DNA of 64,000 nt from Pseudomonas sp. PA15(2017) (GTDB lineage Bacteria > Pseudomonadota > Gammaproteobacteria > Pseudomonadales > Pseudomonadaceae): the NCBI RefSeq assembly GCF_001945395.1, contig NZ_MSXV01000007.1, positions 62,001-126,000 on the forward strand, written 5' to 3'. The notes under the pieces were generated by a model. The model did no database searches. It had not been told where the DNA came from and was given only the letters and a program-made list of their open reading frames with translations. The translations under genes were made by a program, and so were the position numbers. This document shows positions 31,658 to 39,908 of the stretch, one piece after another (positions within the stretch are counted from its first letter, which is position 1; each line of letters begins with the position of its first letter).

Positions 31658-33673
31658 TTGTTGAGGTTCGCTGAGCTGCTGCGTACGCGTTTGGTACGGC
31701 TGCGCCGTCGCCAAAAACGGCTGATCCAGGTTGCCATCGACGTGATGTTGGTATGGGCTGCATTGTGGCTGGCCTTTGTCGTTCGCCTGGGGGATTTCAA
31801 CGAAATCTACCCGCTTGACGGCCACCTGTGGCTCTTCGCGCTGGCGCCACTGATTTCCATCCCCCTGTTCATACGCTTTGGCATGTACCGCGCCGTGATG
31901 CGTTATTTCGGTACCGAGGCACTGATCGCCATCACCAAGGCGGTCTCTCTCTCGGCACTGATTCTGGCATTGGCGATCTATTGGCATCAGGATGCGCGGG
32001 CGGTGATTCCCCGTTCCATGGTGTTCAACTATTGGTGGTTGAGCATTATGCTGATCGGCGGGCTGCGCTTGGCCATGCGCCAGTTCTTCATGGGTCATTG
32101 GTTTGCAGCCGACCAGCCCTTCAAGTTCAGTAGCCGCGATGCGGGTGCCCCCGCAGTGGCCATCTATGGCGCTGGTTCAGCTGGCAACCAATTGGCTGCA
32201 TCCCTGCGAATGGGCCGCTCGATGAGGCCTGTCGCGTTCATCGATGACGATTCGAATATTTCCAATCGAATCATCGCCGGCCTGCGCGTTTATTCACCCA
32301 AGCACATCCAGCAGATGATCGATGAAACGGGAGCCGTCGAAATATTGCTCGCACTGCCATCGGTATCCCGCACGCGCCGTCGTTCCATATTGCAATTGCT
32401 CGAAAAATACCCGCTGCACGTACGCTCGGTTCCCGGCTTCATGGATCTGGCCAGCGGCCGGGTGAAGGTCGAAGATGTGCAGGAAGTCGATATTGCCGAC
32501 TTGCTCGGGCGCGATGCCGTACCTCCGCAACGCGAGTTGTTCGAGCGGTGCATTCGTGGCCAAGTGGTGATGGTAACCGGAGCTGGTGGCTCGATCGGCT
32601 CCGAGTTGTGCAGGCAGATACTTGGATCCGGCCCTAAAACGCTGCTGTTGTTCGAGCATAGCGAATTCAATCTCTACGCCATTCATGGCGAGCTGGAGCA
32701 GCGGATCCGTCGTGAGTCGCTGGCAGTGCGTCTGGTGCCGATCCTAGGCTCGGTACGTAACCAACAGCGCCAGGTCGAACTGTTGCGTGCTTGGGATGTG
32801 AATACCGTTTACCACGCTGCCGCTTATAAACATGTGCCCATGGTCGAGCACAATATCGCCGAAGGCGTACTGAATAATGTGCTGGGTTCGCTGCATACGG
32901 CCCAAGCCGCATTGAAGGCTGGTGTCGAGCATTTCGTATTGATTTCCACCGACAAGGCCGTGCGGCCCACCAACGTAATGGGCAGTACCAAGCGCCTGGC
33001 TGAAATGGTGTTGCAGGCGTTAAGCCGCGAAAGCGCCCCCGTGCTGTTTGGCGACAAGGAAGGTGTGCATCAGGTCAACAAGACCCGTTTCACCATGGTG
33101 CGTTTTGGCAATGTGCTCGGTTCTTCGGGGTCGGTGATCCCGCGGTTCTACGAGCAGATTCGCAAAGGCGGCCCGGTTACGGTTACCCATCCCAATATCA
33201 CGCGTTATTTCATGACCATTCCCGAAGCGGCCCAATTGGTGATTCAGGCCGGTTCCATGGGGCAGGGCGGCGATGTGTTCGTGCTGGACATGGGGAAGCC
33301 GGTGAAGATCGCCGAGCTGGCCGAGAAGATGATCCACCTGACCGGCCTCAGTGTCTGCACCGACAGCAACCCCAGCGGTGATATCTCCATTGAGTACACG
33401 GGGCTGCGTCCGGGTGAGAAGCTTTATGAGGAGTTGCTGATTGGCGACAACGTGAGTCCGACCGAGCATCCGATGATCATGCGTGCCAATGAGGAGCATC
33501 TGCCGTGGGAGACTTTCAAAGGGACCATGGCCGATCTGCTTGGAGCTGTGGAGCAGGATGACTATGATCGGGTCCGTCAGCTGCTGCGTGCCACGGTGTG
33601 CGGTTATACCCCAGAGGGTGAAATCGTCGACTGGATGCACCAGCGCCGTGCTGCTAACAAGCCAATGGAGTAA
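31658..33673 (+). CDS. wbpM: UDP-HexNAc 4,6-dehydratase WbpM
   Basis: WbpM converts UDP-GlcNAc to UDP-4-keto-6-deoxy-HexNAc, the precursor of QuiNAc and FucNAc. The 671 residues comprise four N-terminal membrane helices (about residues 20-130), a regulatory Rossmann domain (AIYGAGSAGNQLAASL near 166) and the catalytic SDR domain with VTGAGGSIGSELCRQI near residue 306. The family's unusual Ser-Met-Lys triad is visible in LISTDKAVRPTNVMGSTKR, where Met replaces the normal Tyr. The start is TTG 31658 with GAGG 7 nt before. It closes the O-antigen locus, as in other Pseudomonas. Confidence 0.95.
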   Translation: MLRFAELLRTRLVRLRRRQKRLIQVAIDVMLVWAALWLAFVVRLGDFNEIYPLDGHLWLFALAPLISIPLFIRFGMYRAVMRYFGTEALIAITKAVSLSALILALAIYWHQDARAVIPRSMVFNYWWLSIMLIGGLRLAMRQFFMGHWFAADQPFKFSSRDAGAPAVAIYGAGSAGNQLAASLRMGRSMRPVAFIDDDSNISNRIIAGLRVYSPKHIQQMIDETGAVEILLALPSVSRTRRRSILQLLEKYPLHVRSVPGFMDLASGRVKVEDVQEVDIADLLGRDAVPPQRELFERCIRGQVVMVTGAGGSIGSELCRQILGSGPKTLLLFEHSEFNLYAIHGELEQRIRRESLAVRLVPILGSVRNQQRQVELLRAWDVNTVYHAAAYKHVPMVEHNIAEGVLNNVLGSLHTAQAALKAGVEHFVLISTDKAVRPTNVMGSTKRLAEMVLQALSRESAPVLFGDKEGVHQVNKTRFTMVRFGNVLGSSGSVIPRFYEQIRKGGPVTVTHPNITRYFMTIPEAAQLVIQAGSMGQGGDVFVLDMGKPVKIAELAEKMIHLTGLSVCTDSNPSGDISIEYTGLRPGEKLYEELLIGDNVSPTEHPMIMRANEEHLPWETFKGTMADLLGAVEQDDYDRVRQLLRATVCGYTPEGEIVDWMHQRRAANKPME

Positions 33674-33698
33674 TCAATCAAGGCTTGGTCAGTGAGTA

Positions 33699-33726
33699 GC
33701 GATACCCACGGCTAGGTGGGTATCGC
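33699..33726. repeat. Perfect hairpin after wbpM
   Basis: GCGATACCCAC (33699-33709) and GTGGGTATCGC (33716-33726) form a perfect 11-bp stem with a 6-nt loop, flanked by a second short pairing (CTTGG and CCAAG). There is no U-tract. It sits between convergent genes and may end transcription from both sides. The GCGATACCC core also occurs in the window's REP family. Confidence 0.6.
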
Positions 33727-33734
33727 CCAAGGCT

Positions 33735-34001
33735 CTACGTCTTGTCCGAAAGGCTTACGCCTTGATGTAAGCGGCTCAGAAACCCCACTTCAAAGGCACG
33801 GCGTTGTATCTCCGCAGGTATCTCTTCCCGTTCGAAAATCAGGGCGGCCCATAACCAGTTTCTGCGGTTGCCGGTCAGCCAGGCCTGGACCGCTTGAACG
33901 CCCTGGTTGAAGGCGGGGCGGCAATCCTGCGCCCAGGCGATAGTCAACCCGGGGTGGCCCTGGTAGCTGGGCAGCGTGGTGGCGATGATTCCCTTATTCA
34001 T
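33735..34001 (-). CDS. Hypothetical protein, third ORF of Ash-like module
   Basis: An 88-residue soluble protein without a recognised family: MNKGIIATTLPSYQGHPGLT at the start, a Trp-rich centre (VQAWLTGNRRNWLWAALIF) and a charged end. It overlaps the upstream small gene by 8 bp, so the two are co-translated. No signal peptide or membrane helix. Convergent with wbpM. Function unknown; small paired genes of this sort follow Ash/Icd-like leaders in proteobacterial genomes. Confidence 0.65.
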   Translation of the reverse strand: MNKGIIATTLPSYQGHPGLTIAWAQDCRPAFNQGVQAVQAWLTGNRRNWLWAALIFEREEIPAEIQRRAFEVGFLSRLHQGVSLSDKT

Positions 34002-34269
34002 GGCTGCTTCTTCCCTGAAGCTGGGACAGTGCCCTGCGGTACAGCACTACCAATTCGTCCAGCAGGTCATTGGCGGCCAGTGTTGCCAAACGTATTCGCA
34101 GCCGGTCGGTGCTGTGCTCTGCATGGCTGGTGAGATCTTCCAGTAGCTCTCGCAGTAGGGCGGCACGCAATTCGGCATCGCCTTGAGCGTTTTGGGCTTG
34201 GTAGTCGGCGGCGGGGATTGGGCTTGGGCGCCTTGGAAATGGCAGGACGCGACCTTGCGGATTAGCCAT
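33994..34269 (-). CDS. Hypothetical protein, second ORF of Ash-like module
   Basis: A 91-residue protein with a Pro-rich start (NPQGRVLPFPRRPSPIPAAD) and a helical remainder (LRAALLRELLEDLTSHAEHS, then LRIRLATLAANDLLDELVVL). It has the strongest Shine-Dalgarno of the region, AAGGAGGTGT before the ATG. It overlaps the upstream leader ORF by 8 bp and the downstream ORF by 8 bp. Family not recognised. Confidence 0.7.
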   Translation of the reverse strand: MANPQGRVLPFPRRPSPIPAADYQAQNAQGDAELRAALLRELLEDLTSHAEHSTDRLRIRLATLAANDLLDELVVLYRRALSQLQGRSSHE

Positions 34270-34525
34270 GGCACACCTCCTTCATGGAGGTTTCGACAGG
34301 TGCTGGTTGGGCAAGGAGGTGCCCTTGCATAAAAGCTGGATAGCGCATTTTCCTTATGCTCCTTGGTTTGGTTAAGGAGCCGTCACCGCCGTTGCTACGC
34401 GGGAATGGTGACGGACCGCACGGGGGTAGCAAACCGGAAACCAAGGGAACCGGCCAGGCCGAAGCCTGCCCCGTACGGCCCGCCATAGAAATGCGGTAGC
34501 ACGGTAACGGGCACCGGCTAGGCAA
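34262..34525 (-). CDS. Ash/Icd-like leader ORF (candidate)
   Basis: The frame encodes SMAGRTGQASAWPVPLVSGL in its first half and ends EVCHG, overlapping the next gene's ATG. These marks recall, from memory, Ash / 'host cell division inhibitor Icd-like' ORFs that stand in front of P4-satellite immunity-type loci: S-M-x-x-R-x-G-Q-x-x-x-WPxP-x-V-x-G at the start and a C-terminal E-V-x-H-G. The DNA is packed with short stems, for example CCGTCACC (34380-34387) and GGTGACGG (34407-34414). It may act mainly as RNA. Treat as a candidate. Confidence 0.4.
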   Translation of the reverse strand: MPSRCPLPCYRISMAGRTGQASAWPVPLVSGLLPPCGPSPFPRSNGGDGSLTKPRSIRKMRYPAFMQGHLLAQPAPVETSMKEVCHG

Positions 34526-34809
34526 TTACGACGCACCGCGTCTTGGTTTCTCAGGTTGCTACACCCGGCCACGGTACCAACCGTGACAGCGGCACTTTAG
34601 CTTGCAGGATGGAAGGTGGCAACCGCTGAGGCGCCAGATAGAGCGGGTGACAATCACAAAGTGTCGGTAACGGGCTTCCAGTAGAGGTGGATGAGCCACC
34701 ATCGCTGGAGCTGCATGTTACGAGGTGAGGAGGCCTGGGTACCGCCGTGCTTGGCCCAGGCCGGGAAACGCAACTTATCGCCGTTATCGGCTGATGGCGC
34801 TGCAGAGCT
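34526..34809. other. Upstream region of the Ash-like module
   Basis: About 280 bp with no supported gene, between the Ash-like module and the M42 peptidase gene (both on the minus strand). It contains further short inverted repeats (for example CGGTACC near 34572 and CCTGGGTACC near 34734). It probably holds the module's promoter and a structured transcript. Confidence 0.4.
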
Positions 34810-36000
34810 TTAACTTTCCTTCTCCCGATTCCCCACCAAACTATCAACCGTCGGCACCCGCGTCTCCGGCTCCATCTGCGCGTCATGTTCCAGCTGATGG
34901 CTGAAGCGCTCCAGCGAGCCGTTTTCCGGTTGCGCATCGCTGGCGAATACCGGTGGGCTGAGCAGGTAGGCGCCGAGCAGGCGGGAGAGGGCAGCGAGGC
35001 TGTCGATGTGTGTGCGTTCATAACCATGGGTAGCATCGCAGCCGAAGGCGATCAGCGCGGTGCGGATGTCATGGCCGGCAGTGACGGCTGATTGTGCGTC
35101 GCTGTGGTAGTAGCGGAACAGGTCGCGGCGCACCGGGATTTCGTTTTCGCTGGCCAGGCGCAGTAGTTGGCGGGACAGGTGATAGTCGTAGGGGCCGCCG
35201 GAGTCGTGCATGGCCACGCTGACGGTGTGCTCGGTGGAGCGCTGGCCGGCGGCGACCGGGGCGATGTCGATGCCCACGAACTCACTGACGTCCCAGGGCA
35301 GCGCAGCCGCCGCACCGGAGCCGACTTCTTCGGTGATGGTGAACAGTGGATGGCAGTCGATAGGCGGCTCCTGGCCGCTTTCCACCACCGCCTTCAGTGC
35401 CGCGAGCAGGGCGGCGACACCGGCCTTGTCGTCCAGGTGGCGGGCGCTGATATGGCCGCTTTCGGTGAACTCGGGCAGCGGGTCGAAGGCTACGAAATCG
35501 CCCACCGACACGCCCAGGCTTTCGCAGTCGGCGCGGCTGGCGACCAGGGCATCGAGGCGCAATTCGACGTGATCCCAGGAAATCGGCATCTGGTCCACTT
35601 CGGTATTGAAGGCGTGCCCAGAGGCCAACAGCGGCAGAACGCTGCCGCGGTAAACACCGTGGTCGCTGAACACGCTGACCCGGCTACCCTCGGCGAAGCG
35701 GCTGGACCAGCAGCCCACAGCGGTCAGGCACAGGCGACCGTTGTCCTTGATCTCACGCACCATGGCACCAATGGTGTCCAGATGCACGGAGACGGCGCGG
35801 TCCGGGCTGTCACGACGGCCCTTCAGGGTGCCACGAATGGTGCCGCGCCGGGTCATTTCGAAGGGGATGCCGATTTCCGTTAGGCGCTCGGCGACATAGC
35901 GCACGATGGTGTCGGTGAAACCGGTGGGGCTGGGAATGGCGAGCATTTCCAGCAGGACTTTTTGCATGTATTCGAGATCGGGTTCTGGAATTTGCGACAT
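34810..36000 (-). CDS. M42 family peptidase of the NAGGN osmoprotectant system
   Basis: A 396-residue metallo-aminopeptidase-like protein. M42 metal ligands are visible as His in SVHLDTIGAMV (near residue 73), Asp in RHLDDKAGVAALLAAL (near 186) and the Glu pair in FTITEEVGSG (near 222). This subfamily always accompanies the genes for N-acetylglutaminylglutamine amide (NAGGN) and is thought to process or recycle the dipeptide. It is the third gene of the asnO-ngg-peptidase set on the minus strand, 264 bp after ngg. Confidence 0.92.
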   Translation of the reverse strand: MSQIPEPDLEYMQKVLLEMLAIPSPTGFTDTIVRYVAERLTEIGIPFEMTRRGTIRGTLKGRRDSPDRAVSVHLDTIGAMVREIKDNGRLCLTAVGCWSSRFAEGSRVSVFSDHGVYRGSVLPLLASGHAFNTEVDQMPISWDHVELRLDALVASRADCESLGVSVGDFVAFDPLPEFTESGHISARHLDDKAGVAALLAALKAVVESGQEPPIDCHPLFTITEEVGSGAAAALPWDVSEFVGIDIAPVAAGQRSTEHTVSVAMHDSGGPYDYHLSRQLLRLASENEIPVRRDLFRYYHSDAQSAVTAGHDIRTALIAFGCDATHGYERTHIDSLAALSRLLGAYLLSPPVFASDAQPENGSLERFSHQLEHDAQMEPETRVPTVDSLVGNREKES

Positions 36001-36264
36001 GGGCTCTCCATCTAGGACGGGGCTGGCCGCCGGGGCGTCTGTCTGCGGTGATTGCGTGACGCCTGTCGACGGACGGAAAATTGCGCTGTGTTACATCCTG
36101 ACCTGTATTTGCCGATAGGGTTTCAACCCTGAGGGGCGGCGTTGTGAGGCCTTATTGCTTGGCGCCGGGCCGGCGCTCCTGCGCGCGAGCTGGGGTAACC
36201 AGAATCGCGCAGGAGCCGCGACCCGCGGCGAGTGGGGCAGCACCGCGGTACCGGCAAGCTTCAG
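36001..36264. repeat. Intergenic region with 11-bp inverted repeat
   Basis: Between ngg and the peptidase gene. GCTCCTGCGCG at 36175-36185 and CGCGCAGGAGC at 36206-36216 form a perfect 11-bp stem. No coding sequence is supported here. The hairpin could end or attenuate transcription from ngg, or stabilise its 3' end. Confidence 0.5.
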
Positions 36265-38007
36265 TCAATCCCCAACGCCATGGCTCAGCGGAAACAGTAG
36301 GTCGATAAAACGTTCTGCGGTCGGCTGCGGTTCATGGTTGGCCAGGCCGGCGCGCTCGTTGGCTTCGATGAACACGTACTCGGGCTGATCCGCCGCAGGC
36401 ACCAGCAGGTCAAGGCCCACCACCGGAATGTCCAGCGCACGGGCAGCTTTGACGGCGGCATCGGCGAGCGTAGGGTGCAGGATACCGGTGACGTCTTCAA
36501 GGATTCCGCCGGTGTGCAGGTTGGCGGTTTTGCGCACGGCCATGCGCTTGCCCTGGGGCAGCACGCTGTCGTAGTCGTAACCAGCGGCGTGCAAGGTGCG
36601 CAGGGTTTCGGCGTCTTTGGGGATACGGCTTTCGCCGCCGGTTGCCGCTTGGCGACGGCGGCTTTGTGCGTCGATCAGCTCGCCAATGGTATGGCGGCCA
36701 TCGCCAAGGATTTCTGCTGGGCGTCGGATTGCCGCCGCCACTACTTCGAAACCGATGACCACGATGCGCAGGTCGAAGCCTTCGTGGTAGCTCTCCAGCA
36801 ATACACGTTCATCGAAGGGGCGGGCACGTTCGATAGCGGCCTGCACATCGGCAGGCGTACGCAGGTCGACGGCAACCCCCTGGCCTTGCTCACCGTCCAC
36901 CGGCTTGACCACCAGACTGCCATGCTCGGCCAGAAACGCCGCGTTGTCTTCGGCGCTGCCTGCCAGGCGCTGCGCGGGCAGGCTCAGGCCGGCACGGCTG
37001 AGGGTGCGGTGGGTAAGGCGCTTGTCCTGACAGAGAGTCATGGTCACGGCGCTGGTCAGGTCGGTCAGCGACTCGCGGCAGCGGATGCGTCGGCCACCCT
37101 GGCTCAGGGTGAACAGGCCGGCTTCGGCGTCGTCGATCTGCGCATCGATGCCACGACGACGGGCCTCGTCGACGATGATGCGCGCATAGGGGTTGAGCTT
37201 GTCGTCCGGCCCTGGGCCGAGGAACAGCGGCTGGTTGATGCCGTTCTTGCGCTTGATGCTGAAGGTCTGCAGTTCACGAAAGCCCAGTTTGGCGTACAGC
37301 TTCTTGGCCTGGCCGTTGTCGTGCAGCACTGACAGATCCAGGTGGCTGAGGCCGCGGCTCATGAAGTGTTCGACCAGGTGCCGCACCAGCACTTCGCCCA
37401 CGCCGGGGCGGCTGCAGGCCGGGTCGACGGCCAGGCACCAGAGGCTGCTGCCCAGTTCGGGGTCCTGGTAGGCCTTCTGGTGATTGAGGCCCATCACGCT
37501 GCCGATCACTGCGCCGCTGTCTTCATCTTCAGCCAGCCAGTAGACGGGGCCACCCTGGTGGCGCGGAGTGAGCTTCTCGGGATCGAGCGGCAGCATGCCG
37601 CGGGTCTGGTACAGGCAGTTGATCGCCTGCCAGTCGGCCTCGGTTTGCGCGCGGCGCACGCGAAAGCCGCGAAAGCCGCGGCGTGCCTGGCGATAGTCGC
37701 TGAACCAAAGGCGCAATGTGTCGGAGGGGTCGAGAAACAGCTGCTGCGGGGCGTGGGCCAGCACCTGTTGCGGCGCCGCTACATAGAGTGCGATATCGCG
37801 CTCGCCGGGCTGCTCGCTGAGCAGCTCTTCAGCCAGCACTGCTGCGTCCGGAAAAGTGTGGCCGATCAGCAGACGGCCCCAGCCACAATGGACGATTTGC
37901 GGTTGGCTGATGCCGTCGCCGTGCTCCTCGGCAAACCGTGCCTGCAGGCGCTCGTAGGAGGGGGACTGGCCCCGGAGAAGGCGTTGGTTGTGGGCAGTGG
38001 CTCGCAT
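36265..38007 (-). CDS. ngg: N-acetylglutaminylglutamine synthetase
   Basis: Ngg joins and acetylates two glutamines to give N-acetylglutaminylglutamine, the precursor of the osmoprotectant NAGGN. The 580-residue protein has a GNAT acetyltransferase domain (about residues 110-270, with CLAVDPACSRPGVGEVLVRH for acetyl-CoA) and a C-terminal ATP-grasp ligase (about 300-575, with GSLVVKPVDGEQGQGVAVDL and YVFIEANERAGLANHEPQ). The length is typical. It follows asnO by 131 bp on the same strand. Confidence 0.93.
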   Translation of the reverse strand: MRATAHNQRLLRGQSPSYERLQARFAEEHGDGISQPQIVHCGWGRLLIGHTFPDAAVLAEELLSEQPGERDIALYVAAPQQVLAHAPQQLFLDPSDTLRLWFSDYRQARRGFRGFRVRRAQTEADWQAINCLYQTRGMLPLDPEKLTPRHQGGPVYWLAEDEDSGAVIGSVMGLNHQKAYQDPELGSSLWCLAVDPACSRPGVGEVLVRHLVEHFMSRGLSHLDLSVLHDNGQAKKLYAKLGFRELQTFSIKRKNGINQPLFLGPGPDDKLNPYARIIVDEARRRGIDAQIDDAEAGLFTLSQGGRRIRCRESLTDLTSAVTMTLCQDKRLTHRTLSRAGLSLPAQRLAGSAEDNAAFLAEHGSLVVKPVDGEQGQGVAVDLRTPADVQAAIERARPFDERVLLESYHEGFDLRIVVIGFEVVAAAIRRPAEILGDGRHTIGELIDAQSRRRQAATGGESRIPKDAETLRTLHAAGYDYDSVLPQGKRMAVRKTANLHTGGILEDVTGILHPTLADAAVKAARALDIPVVGLDLLVPAADQPEYVFIEANERAGLANHEPQPTAERFIDLLFPLSHGVGD

Positions 38008-38138
38008 TGAAGAATGTTCCTTTGCTTACGCATGGCCGGCATTGCCGGCTATCGGTTGGCCTGTCTGGTAACCCGCGGCGAGGCGGATACGGCCATTGCA
38101 GTTGGGAGCGGGGGAGCCGTAGCTCCCCCGATTCGTCG

Positions 38139-39908
38139 TTACAGGCCCTGTTCGCTCAGCCACAGGTTCAAGGCCGCCATTTGCCACAGCTTGGAGCCGC
38201 GTAGCGGCGTCAGCTGGCCCTGCGGGTCGGTAAGCAGGCGGTCGAGCATCTGCGGGTTGAAGATGCCGCGATCATGGGCCGGGTCGACCAGCAGGTCGCG
38301 TACCCAGCCCAGTGTGGCGCCTTCCAGGTGCTTGAGGCCTGGTACCGGGAAGTAGCCCTTCTTGCGGTCGATCACCTCGGACGGGATCACCTTACGGGCC
38401 GCTTCCTTGAGCACGTACTTGCCGCCTTCCGGCAGTTTGAACTGGCCGGGGATGCGCGCCGACAATTCCGCCACGCGGTAGTCAAGGAACGGCGTGCGCG
38501 CTTCGAGGCCCCAGGCCATGGTCATGTTATCGACGCGTTTGACCGGGTCGTCGACCAGCATCACCGTGCTGTCCAGGCGCAGCGCCTTGTCCACGGCGGC
38601 GGTCGCGCCTGGCTGGGCGAAGTGCTGGCGGACGAATTCGCCGGATACGTCGTCGGTCAGCCAGGCGGGTTGTACGCAGGCGGCGTATTCATCGTGCTCG
38701 CGGTCGAAGAAGGCCTTGCGATAGGCGCTGTAGGCGTCGTCCGCCCCGTCGACCAGCGGGTACCAGTGATAGCCGGCGAACAGCTCGTCGGCGCCCTGGC
38801 CGCTTTGCACCACCTTGCAGTGCTTGGCCACTTCCCGCGAGAGCAGGTAGAACGCGATGCAGTCGTGGCTGACCATCGGCTCGCTCATGGCGCGGAAGGC
38901 CGCTGGCAGCTGATCGAGAATCTCGTTCTCGCCGATGCGCAGCTGGTGGTGCTGGGTTTCGAAGCGCTTGGCGATTAGGTCCGAATACTGGAATTCGTCG
39001 CCGCGCTCGCCGCCGGCATCCTGGAAACCGATGGAGAAGGTCAGCAGGTTCTCGACGCCGGCCTCACGCAGCAGGCCGACCAGCATGCTTGAGTCGACAC
39101 CGCCGGACAGCAGCACGCCGACATCAACGGCAGCGCGCTGACGGATTTCGACGGCTTCGCGCATGCTGTCGAGGGTGGCGTCGCGCCAGTCTTCGAAGGT
39201 GAAGTTGGCTTCGTCGGCGTTCGGGCCGAAGTTCAGCGTCCACCACACCTTCTGCTCGACCTTGCCGTTGGTGTCGATACGCATCCAGGTTGCTGGCGGC
39301 AGCTTCTCCACGCCGGCGAGAATGGTGCGGGGGGCGGGCACCACGGCATGGAAGTTCAAGTAATTGTTAAGCGCGATGGGGTCGAGCGTCTTGCCGATAT
39401 CGCCGCCTTTCATCAGGGCAGGCAGGCTCGAGGCGAAGCGCAAACGATCCTTGGTCTTGGATAGGTACAACGGCTTGACGCCCAGGCGGTCGCGGGCGAT
39501 GAACAGCTGGCCGCTATCGCGCTCCCAGATGGCGAAAGCGAACATGCCATTGAGCTTGGGCAGCAGGTCGGCGCCCCAGGCGTGATAGCCCTTGAGCAGC
39601 ACCTCGGTGTCGCCACCGGAGAAGAAGCGGTAGCCGAGCCGTTCCAGCTCGCTGCGCAGTTCCGGGTAGTTGTAGATGGCGCCATTGAAGACCATCGACA
39701 GGCCGAGATCGTTATCGATCATCGGCTGGCCCGAGGCTTCTGCAAGATCCATGATCTTCAGCCGGCGATGGCCGAAGGCGACGGGGCCGCGGCTGTGGAA
39801 GCCGTGTGCGTCCGGGCCGCGAGGGGCGAGGTGGTGAGTGATGCGTTCAACGGCAGCCAGATCGGCCGGTTGGTTATCGAATCGAAGTTCGCCTGCTATT
39901 CCGCACAT
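38139..39908 (-). CDS. asnO: N-acetylglutaminylglutamine amidotransferase (AsnB-like)
   Basis: This 589-residue asparagine-synthetase-like enzyme amidates the dipeptide to NAGGN. The N-terminal glutaminase domain starts MCGIAGE with nucleophile Cys2 and has SMVFNGAIYNYPELR. The ATP-pyrophosphatase domain follows, with VGVLLSGGVDSSMLVGLL (PP-loop) near residue 262 and GADELFAGY near 370. No Shine-Dalgarno lies close to the ATG. A strong AAGGAGG on the minus strand is 35 nt further upstream (39944-39950). First gene of the NAGGN set; expression is expected to rise with osmotic stress. Confidence 0.93.
   Translation of the reverse strand: MCGIAGELRFDNQPADLAAVERITHHLAPRGPDAHGFHSRGPVAFGHRRLKIMDLAEASGQPMIDNDLGLSMVFNGAIYNYPELRSELERLGYRFFSGGDTEVLLKGYHAWGADLLPKLNGMFAFAIWERDSGQLFIARDRLGVKPLYLSKTKDRLRFASSLPALMKGGDIGKTLDPIALNNYLNFHAVVPAPRTILAGVEKLPPATWMRIDTNGKVEQKVWWTLNFGPNADEANFTFEDWRDATLDSMREAVEIRQRAAVDVGVLLSGGVDSSMLVGLLREAGVENLLTFSIGFQDAGGERGDEFQYSDLIAKRFETQHHQLRIGENEILDQLPAAFRAMSEPMVSHDCIAFYLLSREVAKHCKVVQSGQGADELFAGYHWYPLVDGADDAYSAYRKAFFDREHDEYAACVQPAWLTDDVSGEFVRQHFAQPGATAAVDKALRLDSTVMLVDDPVKRVDNMTMAWGLEARTPFLDYRVAELSARIPGQFKLPEGGKYVLKEAARKVIPSEVIDRKKGYFPVPGLKHLEGATLGWVRDLLVDPAHDRGIFNPQMLDRLLTDPQGQLTPLRGSKLWQMAALNLWLSEQGL

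Follow-up and report, generated by a model that had tools for sequence, protein, structure and literature searches.

The cassette at this locus, about 0.92 kb of minus-strand DNA flanked by genes for an M42 peptidase and a WbpM-like protein (both assigned by Pfam), raises the question of what so small a module encodes and how its expression might be set. The initial annotation of the window, by which we mean the whole 64-kb stretch of DNA that was analysed, had described three small ORFs with an 8-nt overlap at both junctions and a strong Shine-Dalgarno sequence for the middle gene, and both observations are borne out, the latter being GGAGGTG at 34280-34274, 5' of the ATG of a 91-aa gene. The features of the cassette are as follows, with site letters after phage P1, in which 'a' denotes the 7-nt site and 'b' the Shine-Dalgarno site.

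34594-34622, minus strand: sigma-70-like promoter, TTGCCA-17-TAAAGT, the sole promoter-like site in 33650-34810 (shuffles give a mean of 0.3)
34568-34587, minus strand: 5' hairpin of the predicted transcript, within a sub-threshold c4-a1b1 match
34556-34562, minus strand: upstream 7-nt target (P1 a1 type), GTAGCAA, perfectly complementary to C4 loop 34432-34426
34542-34549, minus strand: upstream second target (P1 b1 type), AAACCAAG, with an 8-nt complement in C4 loop 34449-34438
34525-34262, minus strand: 87-aa ORF with a TTG start, mostly overlying C4
34404-34490, minus strand: C4 antisense RNA, RF01695, 85 bits against a gathering score of 45, with fold and covariation
34438-34449, minus strand: C4 loop for the leader Shine-Dalgarno (P1 b' type), with a 9-nt complement downstream
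34426-34432, minus strand: C4 7-nt specificity loop (P1 a' type), TTGCTAC, complementary to both 7-nt targets
34392-34398, minus strand: downstream 7-nt target (P1 a2 type), the same 7-nt site as upstream
34359-34369, minus strand: downstream second target over the leader Shine-Dalgarno (P1 b2 type); C4 pairs with AAACCAAGG (34369-34361), and AAGGAG occupies 34364-34359
34262-34348, minus strand: 28-aa Icd-like leader ORF, ATG at 34348, its stop overlapping the start of the 91-aa gene by 8 nt
33994-34269, minus strand: gene of a 91-aa protein without known family
33735-34001, minus strand: QslA-family gene, 88 aa
33699-33726, no strand assigned: inverted repeat of 11 bp where qslA and the wbpM-like gene converge, with no T run after the repeat

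Most of what had been taken for a leader ORF is a C4 antisense RNA, which the annotation had missed and which is the sole Rfam family over threshold within the 64-kb window. Its three-stem fold at 34490-34404 has a free energy of -49.9 kcal/mol (z -5.5), and since none of 200 shuffles folds equally well, the short stems that had been noted in the leader DNA exceed chance. The stems also covary, a property on which the annotation had staked its reading of them: when 33 C4 RNAs, taken from the host and from further genomes, are aligned, 15 of 22 pairs have changed on both sides, a number reached by none of 500 shuffles, and standard pairs make up 94.6% of the paired cells. In the sequence, a GG stands at 34484, where the 5' end of a processed C4 would be expected. 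On either flank of C4, and within the same predicted transcript, lies a target pair that complements its loops, although the c4-a1b1 model itself matches the window below threshold (31.9 bits vs. a gathering score of 46.7). A sequence similar to the promoter is seen by eye at the corresponding position of related cassettes. Separately, the 3' arm of a C4 stem (34414-34407) is perfectly complementary over 8 nt to 34387-34380, just past the 7-nt target, and may therefore pair there as an alternative.

The ORF at 34525-34262 does exist as annotated, but the 87-aa, TTG-started version was rejected as the leader gene because peptide conservation is confined to its last 28 codons, and the conserved coding leader is probably only those 28 codons, starting at ATG 34348. 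Leaders of this kind, 27-31 aa long and with the N-terminal pattern M..[P/L].F, are present in 83 of 84 distinct cassettes, and in 82 of the 84 the leader overlaps the next start, by 8 nt in 59 of them and otherwise by 14, 11 or 4 nt. The proposed Ash/Icd character of the leader thus survives in one half only: it is an Icd-type translated leader in an operon of the phage-immunity type, whereas neither the short leader (E up to 10) nor the 87-aa ORF (E up to 0.01) matches any Pfam family, Ash (PF10554) included.

QslA is a P. aeruginosa protein that helps set the quorum-sensing threshold, and it is to this family that the last gene of the cassette belongs. The two downstream proteins had been said to match no known family, which remains true of the 91-aa protein; the 88-aa protein, in contrast, is a QslA with a solved relative, as it matches PF18226 (104 bits vs. 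25, 3.3e-30) and, by sequence, the structure 4ng2. Its AlphaFold2 model (pLDDT 86) has as best PDB match the QslA of the LasR complex (4ng2_E, Foldseek E 4.3e-5, TM 0.81, 1.5 A), so that it shares family and fold with P. aeruginosa QslA at 39% identity. For the 91-aa protein, by contrast, Pfam, NCBIfam and PHROGs yield no family, and matches to LcrG, FMN_bind_2 and EzrA were discarded, all lying far under the cut-offs; its model (pLDDT 77) has two predicted helices, and a fold search against the PDB returned nothing significant (best E 0.2). Judged from comparison with six relatives, both genes are under purifying selection, with dN/dS of 0.17-0.34 for the 91-aa gene and 0.05-0.28 for qslA. 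In six C4-bearing loci from five genomes (L025, L026, L028, L029, L034 and L036), a single protein of ~170-200 aa with a C-terminal QslA starts at the position of the 91-aa gene. The likeness of the 91-aa protein to the N-terminal domain of these long proteins is weak (E 0.0024, probability 12%), and QslA does not match that domain; a 91-aa/QslA fusion is therefore plausible, not proven. The 91-aa protein probably acts together with QslA.

The surroundings of the cassette were also considered. There is no tRNA within the 64-kb window, as the annotation had noted, and Pfam finds no integrase or primase among the six window proteins scanned, which include both direct flanks. A simple scan gave no intrinsic terminator after qslA. 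The 3' neighbour varies, being WbpM-like in the window (33735-33575) and in L148, and RmlB-like by eye in L069 and L159, and the content of the O-antigen cluster therefore changes close to the cassette. On the other side, an M42 peptidase, a GNAT plus ATP-grasp protein and an asparagine synthase follow one another at 34810-39908, a gene row that we take to be the operon for the osmolyte N-acetylglutaminylglutamine amide.

The suspicion that this is a dispersed module proved right: the cassette recurs in many genomes, and in many of them relatives keep the same three-ORF order. Within the host genome there are three QslA genes over the cut-off, each with a C4 upstream, and four further C4 RNAs in loci that are phage- or satellite-like by eye. 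Across 99 genomes of the genus, a same-strand C4 lies upstream of 21 of the 28 QslA matches over the cut-off; the other seven comprise four with unrelated upstream DNA (L021-L024), one decayed (L020), one in which no C4 exceeds the threshold (L027) and one at a contig edge (L035). QslA stands behind a C4 in 66 of the 74 named loci (two of the 66 are cut by a contig end, and three of the eight without C4 are too close to a contig edge to judge), in 32 of 40 further stretches, some of which repeat loci already counted, with eight lacking it, and in all 15 loci of the sister genus that holds the closest relatives of P. aeruginosa QslA. A search of phage records gave no QslA; IMG/VR has three loci with the gene, and for one of the three the contig also encodes an integrase.

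Several side observations accompany this distribution. The QslA genes of L021-L024 form a lineage that has no C4, and C4 is likewise missing at two QslA loci from another genus (L204, L205). C4 RNAs occur in 92 of the 99 genomes, with at least 20 copies in 38 of them when up to 39 candidates were scored per genome. One genome (G097) has 42 C4 RNAs over the cut-off, most of them, by eye, directly before one small gene (L039-L068); five of the small proteins behind them were submitted to Pfam, and one was assigned to DUF6124 and two to DUF3077. DUF6124 gave no match in the host genome, a result that is uninformative because the control gave none either. A contig labelled as a Kaiparowitsia implicata MAG (L070) carries a Pseudomonas-like C4-QslA cassette and is probably contamination in this respect.

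Could the cassette nevertheless be the decaying immunity remnant of a prophage or satellite, in which C4 is still recognisable and the operon no longer functions? C4 operons are a phage property, no phage gene is found by Pfam among the six window proteins scanned, and decayed relatives such as L020 are known, all of which would fit such a remnant. However, the promoter, the target sites, the leader and both genes are intact, the dN/dS values of both genes lie at 0.05-0.34, and key complementarity is preserved at three sites; we therefore regard decay as very unlikely.

A parallel comes from P. aeruginosa itself, in one record, a plasmid-borne copy (NZ_CP131792.1; L219), which contains aprD-aprX-qslA; a stretch of its QslA is 100% identical to the protein that was crystallised. 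Ahead of this qslA lies a gap of 1 kb, and there Rfam detects both c4-a1b1 (66 bits, gathering score 46.7) and C4 (64.8 bits, gathering score 45). A loop of this C4, TCCGTTTC, forms an 8-nt pairing over the qslA Shine-Dalgarno, and its 7-nt loop, CTGTCAA, is complemented on both sides, with a poor upstream b site of 4 nt. The pair CTGTCAA/TTGACAG is exactly the 'a' key of phage P1. In P. aeruginosa, qslA follows directly after C4, whereas in the window the leader peptide and the 91-aa gene intervene. Just upstream of C4, a likeness to isrK (RF01394) is seen in both L219 (2667-2754, 35.1 bits) and the window (34587-34524, 22.5 bits), below the gathering score of 50 in each. The record is that of an 847-kb conjugative plasmid bearing the apr-qslA region, which is presumably chromosomal in P. 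aeruginosa as a rule, and its presence there could be either a real capture or a matter of assembly.

How QslA itself is regulated is not explained in the passages of the QslA literature consulted; a review reports QslA protein to be high in PAO1 and very scarce in PA14 (PMC9607943). A C4 RNA lying antisense to the qslA Shine-Dalgarno offers a concrete and testable answer to this question.

Loops and targets are matched within cassettes. Of 104 cassettes (104 of 134 full-length C4 matches, the 30 omitted being, by eye, re-fetched copies of loci that were kept), 103 have a perfect complement of at least 7 nt to the 7-nt loop just on the downstream side and 100 have one on the upstream side, while non-identical 7-nt loops reach such a complement in only 270 of 9620 comparisons. 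The second loop, that for the Shine-Dalgarno, attains at least 7 nt in 70 of the 104 cassettes and merely 4-6 nt in the other 34, compared with 1311 of 8918 for non-identical loops. The keys differ between cassettes, and about nine keys recur. Lineage as the sole cause of this diversity was rejected, as a tree of 90 cassettes built from coding DNA requires at least 55 changes of the 7-nt key, where shuffled keys require a mean of 62.9 (range 54-70). Even sister pairs on the tree differ in the 7-nt key in 18 of 24 cases, among them seven pairs from single genomes (assigned by eye) that are 0.03-0.27 substitutions per site apart. The C4-QslA cassettes offer a collection of natural antisense keys in which three sites change jointly.

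Since each cassette has its own matching key, most copies within one genome should not silence each other. In the host genome all seven 7-nt keys differ, and with both loops combined the own target is the best in three of the seven cases. In G097 many copies have the 7-nt key in common; there, at 29 of the 30 loci fetched (L051 omitted) out of 43 matches, the second loop pairs over at least 8 nt with its own target in 12 of 29 loci and with a foreign target in 5 of 812 comparisons, and both loops combined favour the own target in 19 of 29. Among 63 loci in 23 multi-copy genomes, 2 of 64 pairs of co-resident cassettes have the same 7-nt key where 7.4 would be expected (P 0.0125, from a shuffle that ignores relatedness), a nominal avoidance within genomes that is not seen for the second loop (9 vs. 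8.6 expected) or for the full key (1 vs. 1.7).

These patterns bear on another explanation, transferred from an idea raised in the consulted parts of a study on Acinetobacter (PMC5320573), in which C4 would serve mainly as immunity in trans against phages or satellites that enter with the same key, and the two proteins, QslA and the 91-aa one, would be secondary cargo. C4 is an immunity RNA in P1, the exact P1 7-nt key stands before P. aeruginosa qslA, and both the diversity of the keys and the deficit of shared 7-nt keys among co-resident cassettes are what such a function might produce. However, every C4 has matched targets within its own leader, the proteins are under purifying selection, and neither the second loop nor the full key shows avoidance. 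Immunity in trans as the main role therefore appears improbable to us, and control of the cassette's own genes the better account of C4.

Which regulator the host QslA would act on is a related question. In excerpts from the literature, QslA binds LasR and prevents its dimerisation (PMC13043044), and it is also reported to act on MvfR (PMC6068238). The LuxR-type receptor domain PF03472 was not found in the host genome, although the E. coli control matched, and it is missing in 7 of the 18 QslA-bearing genomes of the genus sample. Therefore, as far as gene content can tell, LasR is probably not the target in this host, and the QslA family probably has others. One might accordingly picture QslA as regulating a host circuit without LuxR-type receptors, for instance by acting on a LysR-type regulator as reported for MvfR, with C4 setting a low constant level rather than operating a switch. 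The missing receptors and the reported effect on MvfR both agree with this picture, but key diversity at three linked sites would be superfluous for a constant level, and we consider it possible though rather doubtful.

Taken together, the C4 match with its covarying stems, the P1 layout, the matched keys, the QslA family assignment, the recurrence of the cassette, the P. aeruginosa parallel and the dN/dS values make it likely, in our judgement, that the cassette is a P1-type C4 operon with the antiactivator QslA in place of the P1 antirepressor. Against this reading count the missing LuxR-type receptor, the QslA genes without C4, the sub-threshold c4-a1b1 match, the short second-loop pairings in 34 cassettes and the weak likeness of the 91-aa protein to the N-terminal domain of the long QslA proteins. 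In a C4 operon of this type, a transcript of the whole cassette would start from the single promoter, and C4 would be cut out of it, presumably by RNase P as in P1. One C4 loop would then pair with the 7-nt site and another with the Shine-Dalgarno of the 28-aa leader, blocking translation of the leader, and since the reading frames of the leader, the 91-aa protein and QslA overlap in series, this block would lower translation of the whole operon. QslA would thus be kept low as long as C4 is present and would rise once C4 is missing, titrated or outcompeted, whereupon the protein may bind and disable a transcription regulator, as is reported for LasR in P. aeruginosa.

A regulator-disabling protein at the position of P1 Ant suggests, by analogy, that QslA is a recruited antirepressor. 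We would go further only tentatively, with the more speculative proposal, on which we place modest weight, that QslA is an exapted phage-type antirepressor, that the large, dispersed family of C4 cassettes with private keys behaves as a set of immunity groups, and that the P1-keyed one sets the LasR threshold of P. aeruginosa. If so, an incoming phage, satellite or related cassette with C4 or its target sites could shift the QslA level and thereby link infection to quorum sensing.

The closest known system is the immI region of phages P1 and P7. The order annotated in the P1 record (AF234172) is a sigma-70 promoter, a1 (7 nt), b1 (8 nt), C4 (77 nt), a2, b2, icd and ant1/ant2, and the window likewise has promoter, a1 and b1, C4, a2 and b2, a coupled leader and then a product that would disable a regulator. 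The two downstream target sites are 29 nt apart, start to start, in both, and counted from the end of the model match, the two sites and the leader start lie at +6, +35 and +56 in the window and at +1, +30 and +48 in P1. The same C4 model, built without P1, detects the P1 C4 at 60.6 bits. In the window, as in P1 immI, the leader Shine-Dalgarno lies under the downstream target and the leader is coupled to the next gene. According to the annotation of AF234172, the product of ant1/ant2 acts, within a complex, as an antagonist of the C1 repressor, and a note in the same record states that Icd is apparently needed for ant expression. In the consulted parts of PMC5320573, RNase P releases the C4 of P1 and P7 from a longer transcript, and C4 blocks a ribosome site. 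The differences are that Ant is lacking in the window, where the 91-aa gene and QslA stand instead, that the leader has 28 aa vs. 73 aa for Icd, without evident sequence likeness, and that the window cassette is solitary in a chromosome rather than phage-borne.

Ash and P4-type satellites resemble the window in having a small translated leader in an immunity-type operon, but the leader here is without a Pfam match and no satellite genes are present among the scanned neighbours. In the open-access literature searched, the parts, C4 operon and QslA, are known, whereas their combination was not found, although an earlier description is possible; nor does that literature mention PA1244, Pseudomonas aeruginosa and an sRNA jointly. 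The multi-copy C4-like sRNAs of A. baumannii (PMC5320573), as described in the parts consulted, resemble the RNA of the window in being dispersed chromosomal C4 copies with a variable specificity loop that are apparently processed from longer transcripts, and the targets discussed for them there are incoming phages and other bacterial transcripts. By contrast, C4 RNAs of the window type have matched targets in their own leader and an identified cargo, so that the chromosomal C4 RNAs that abound in the genus now acquire cis targets and cargo.
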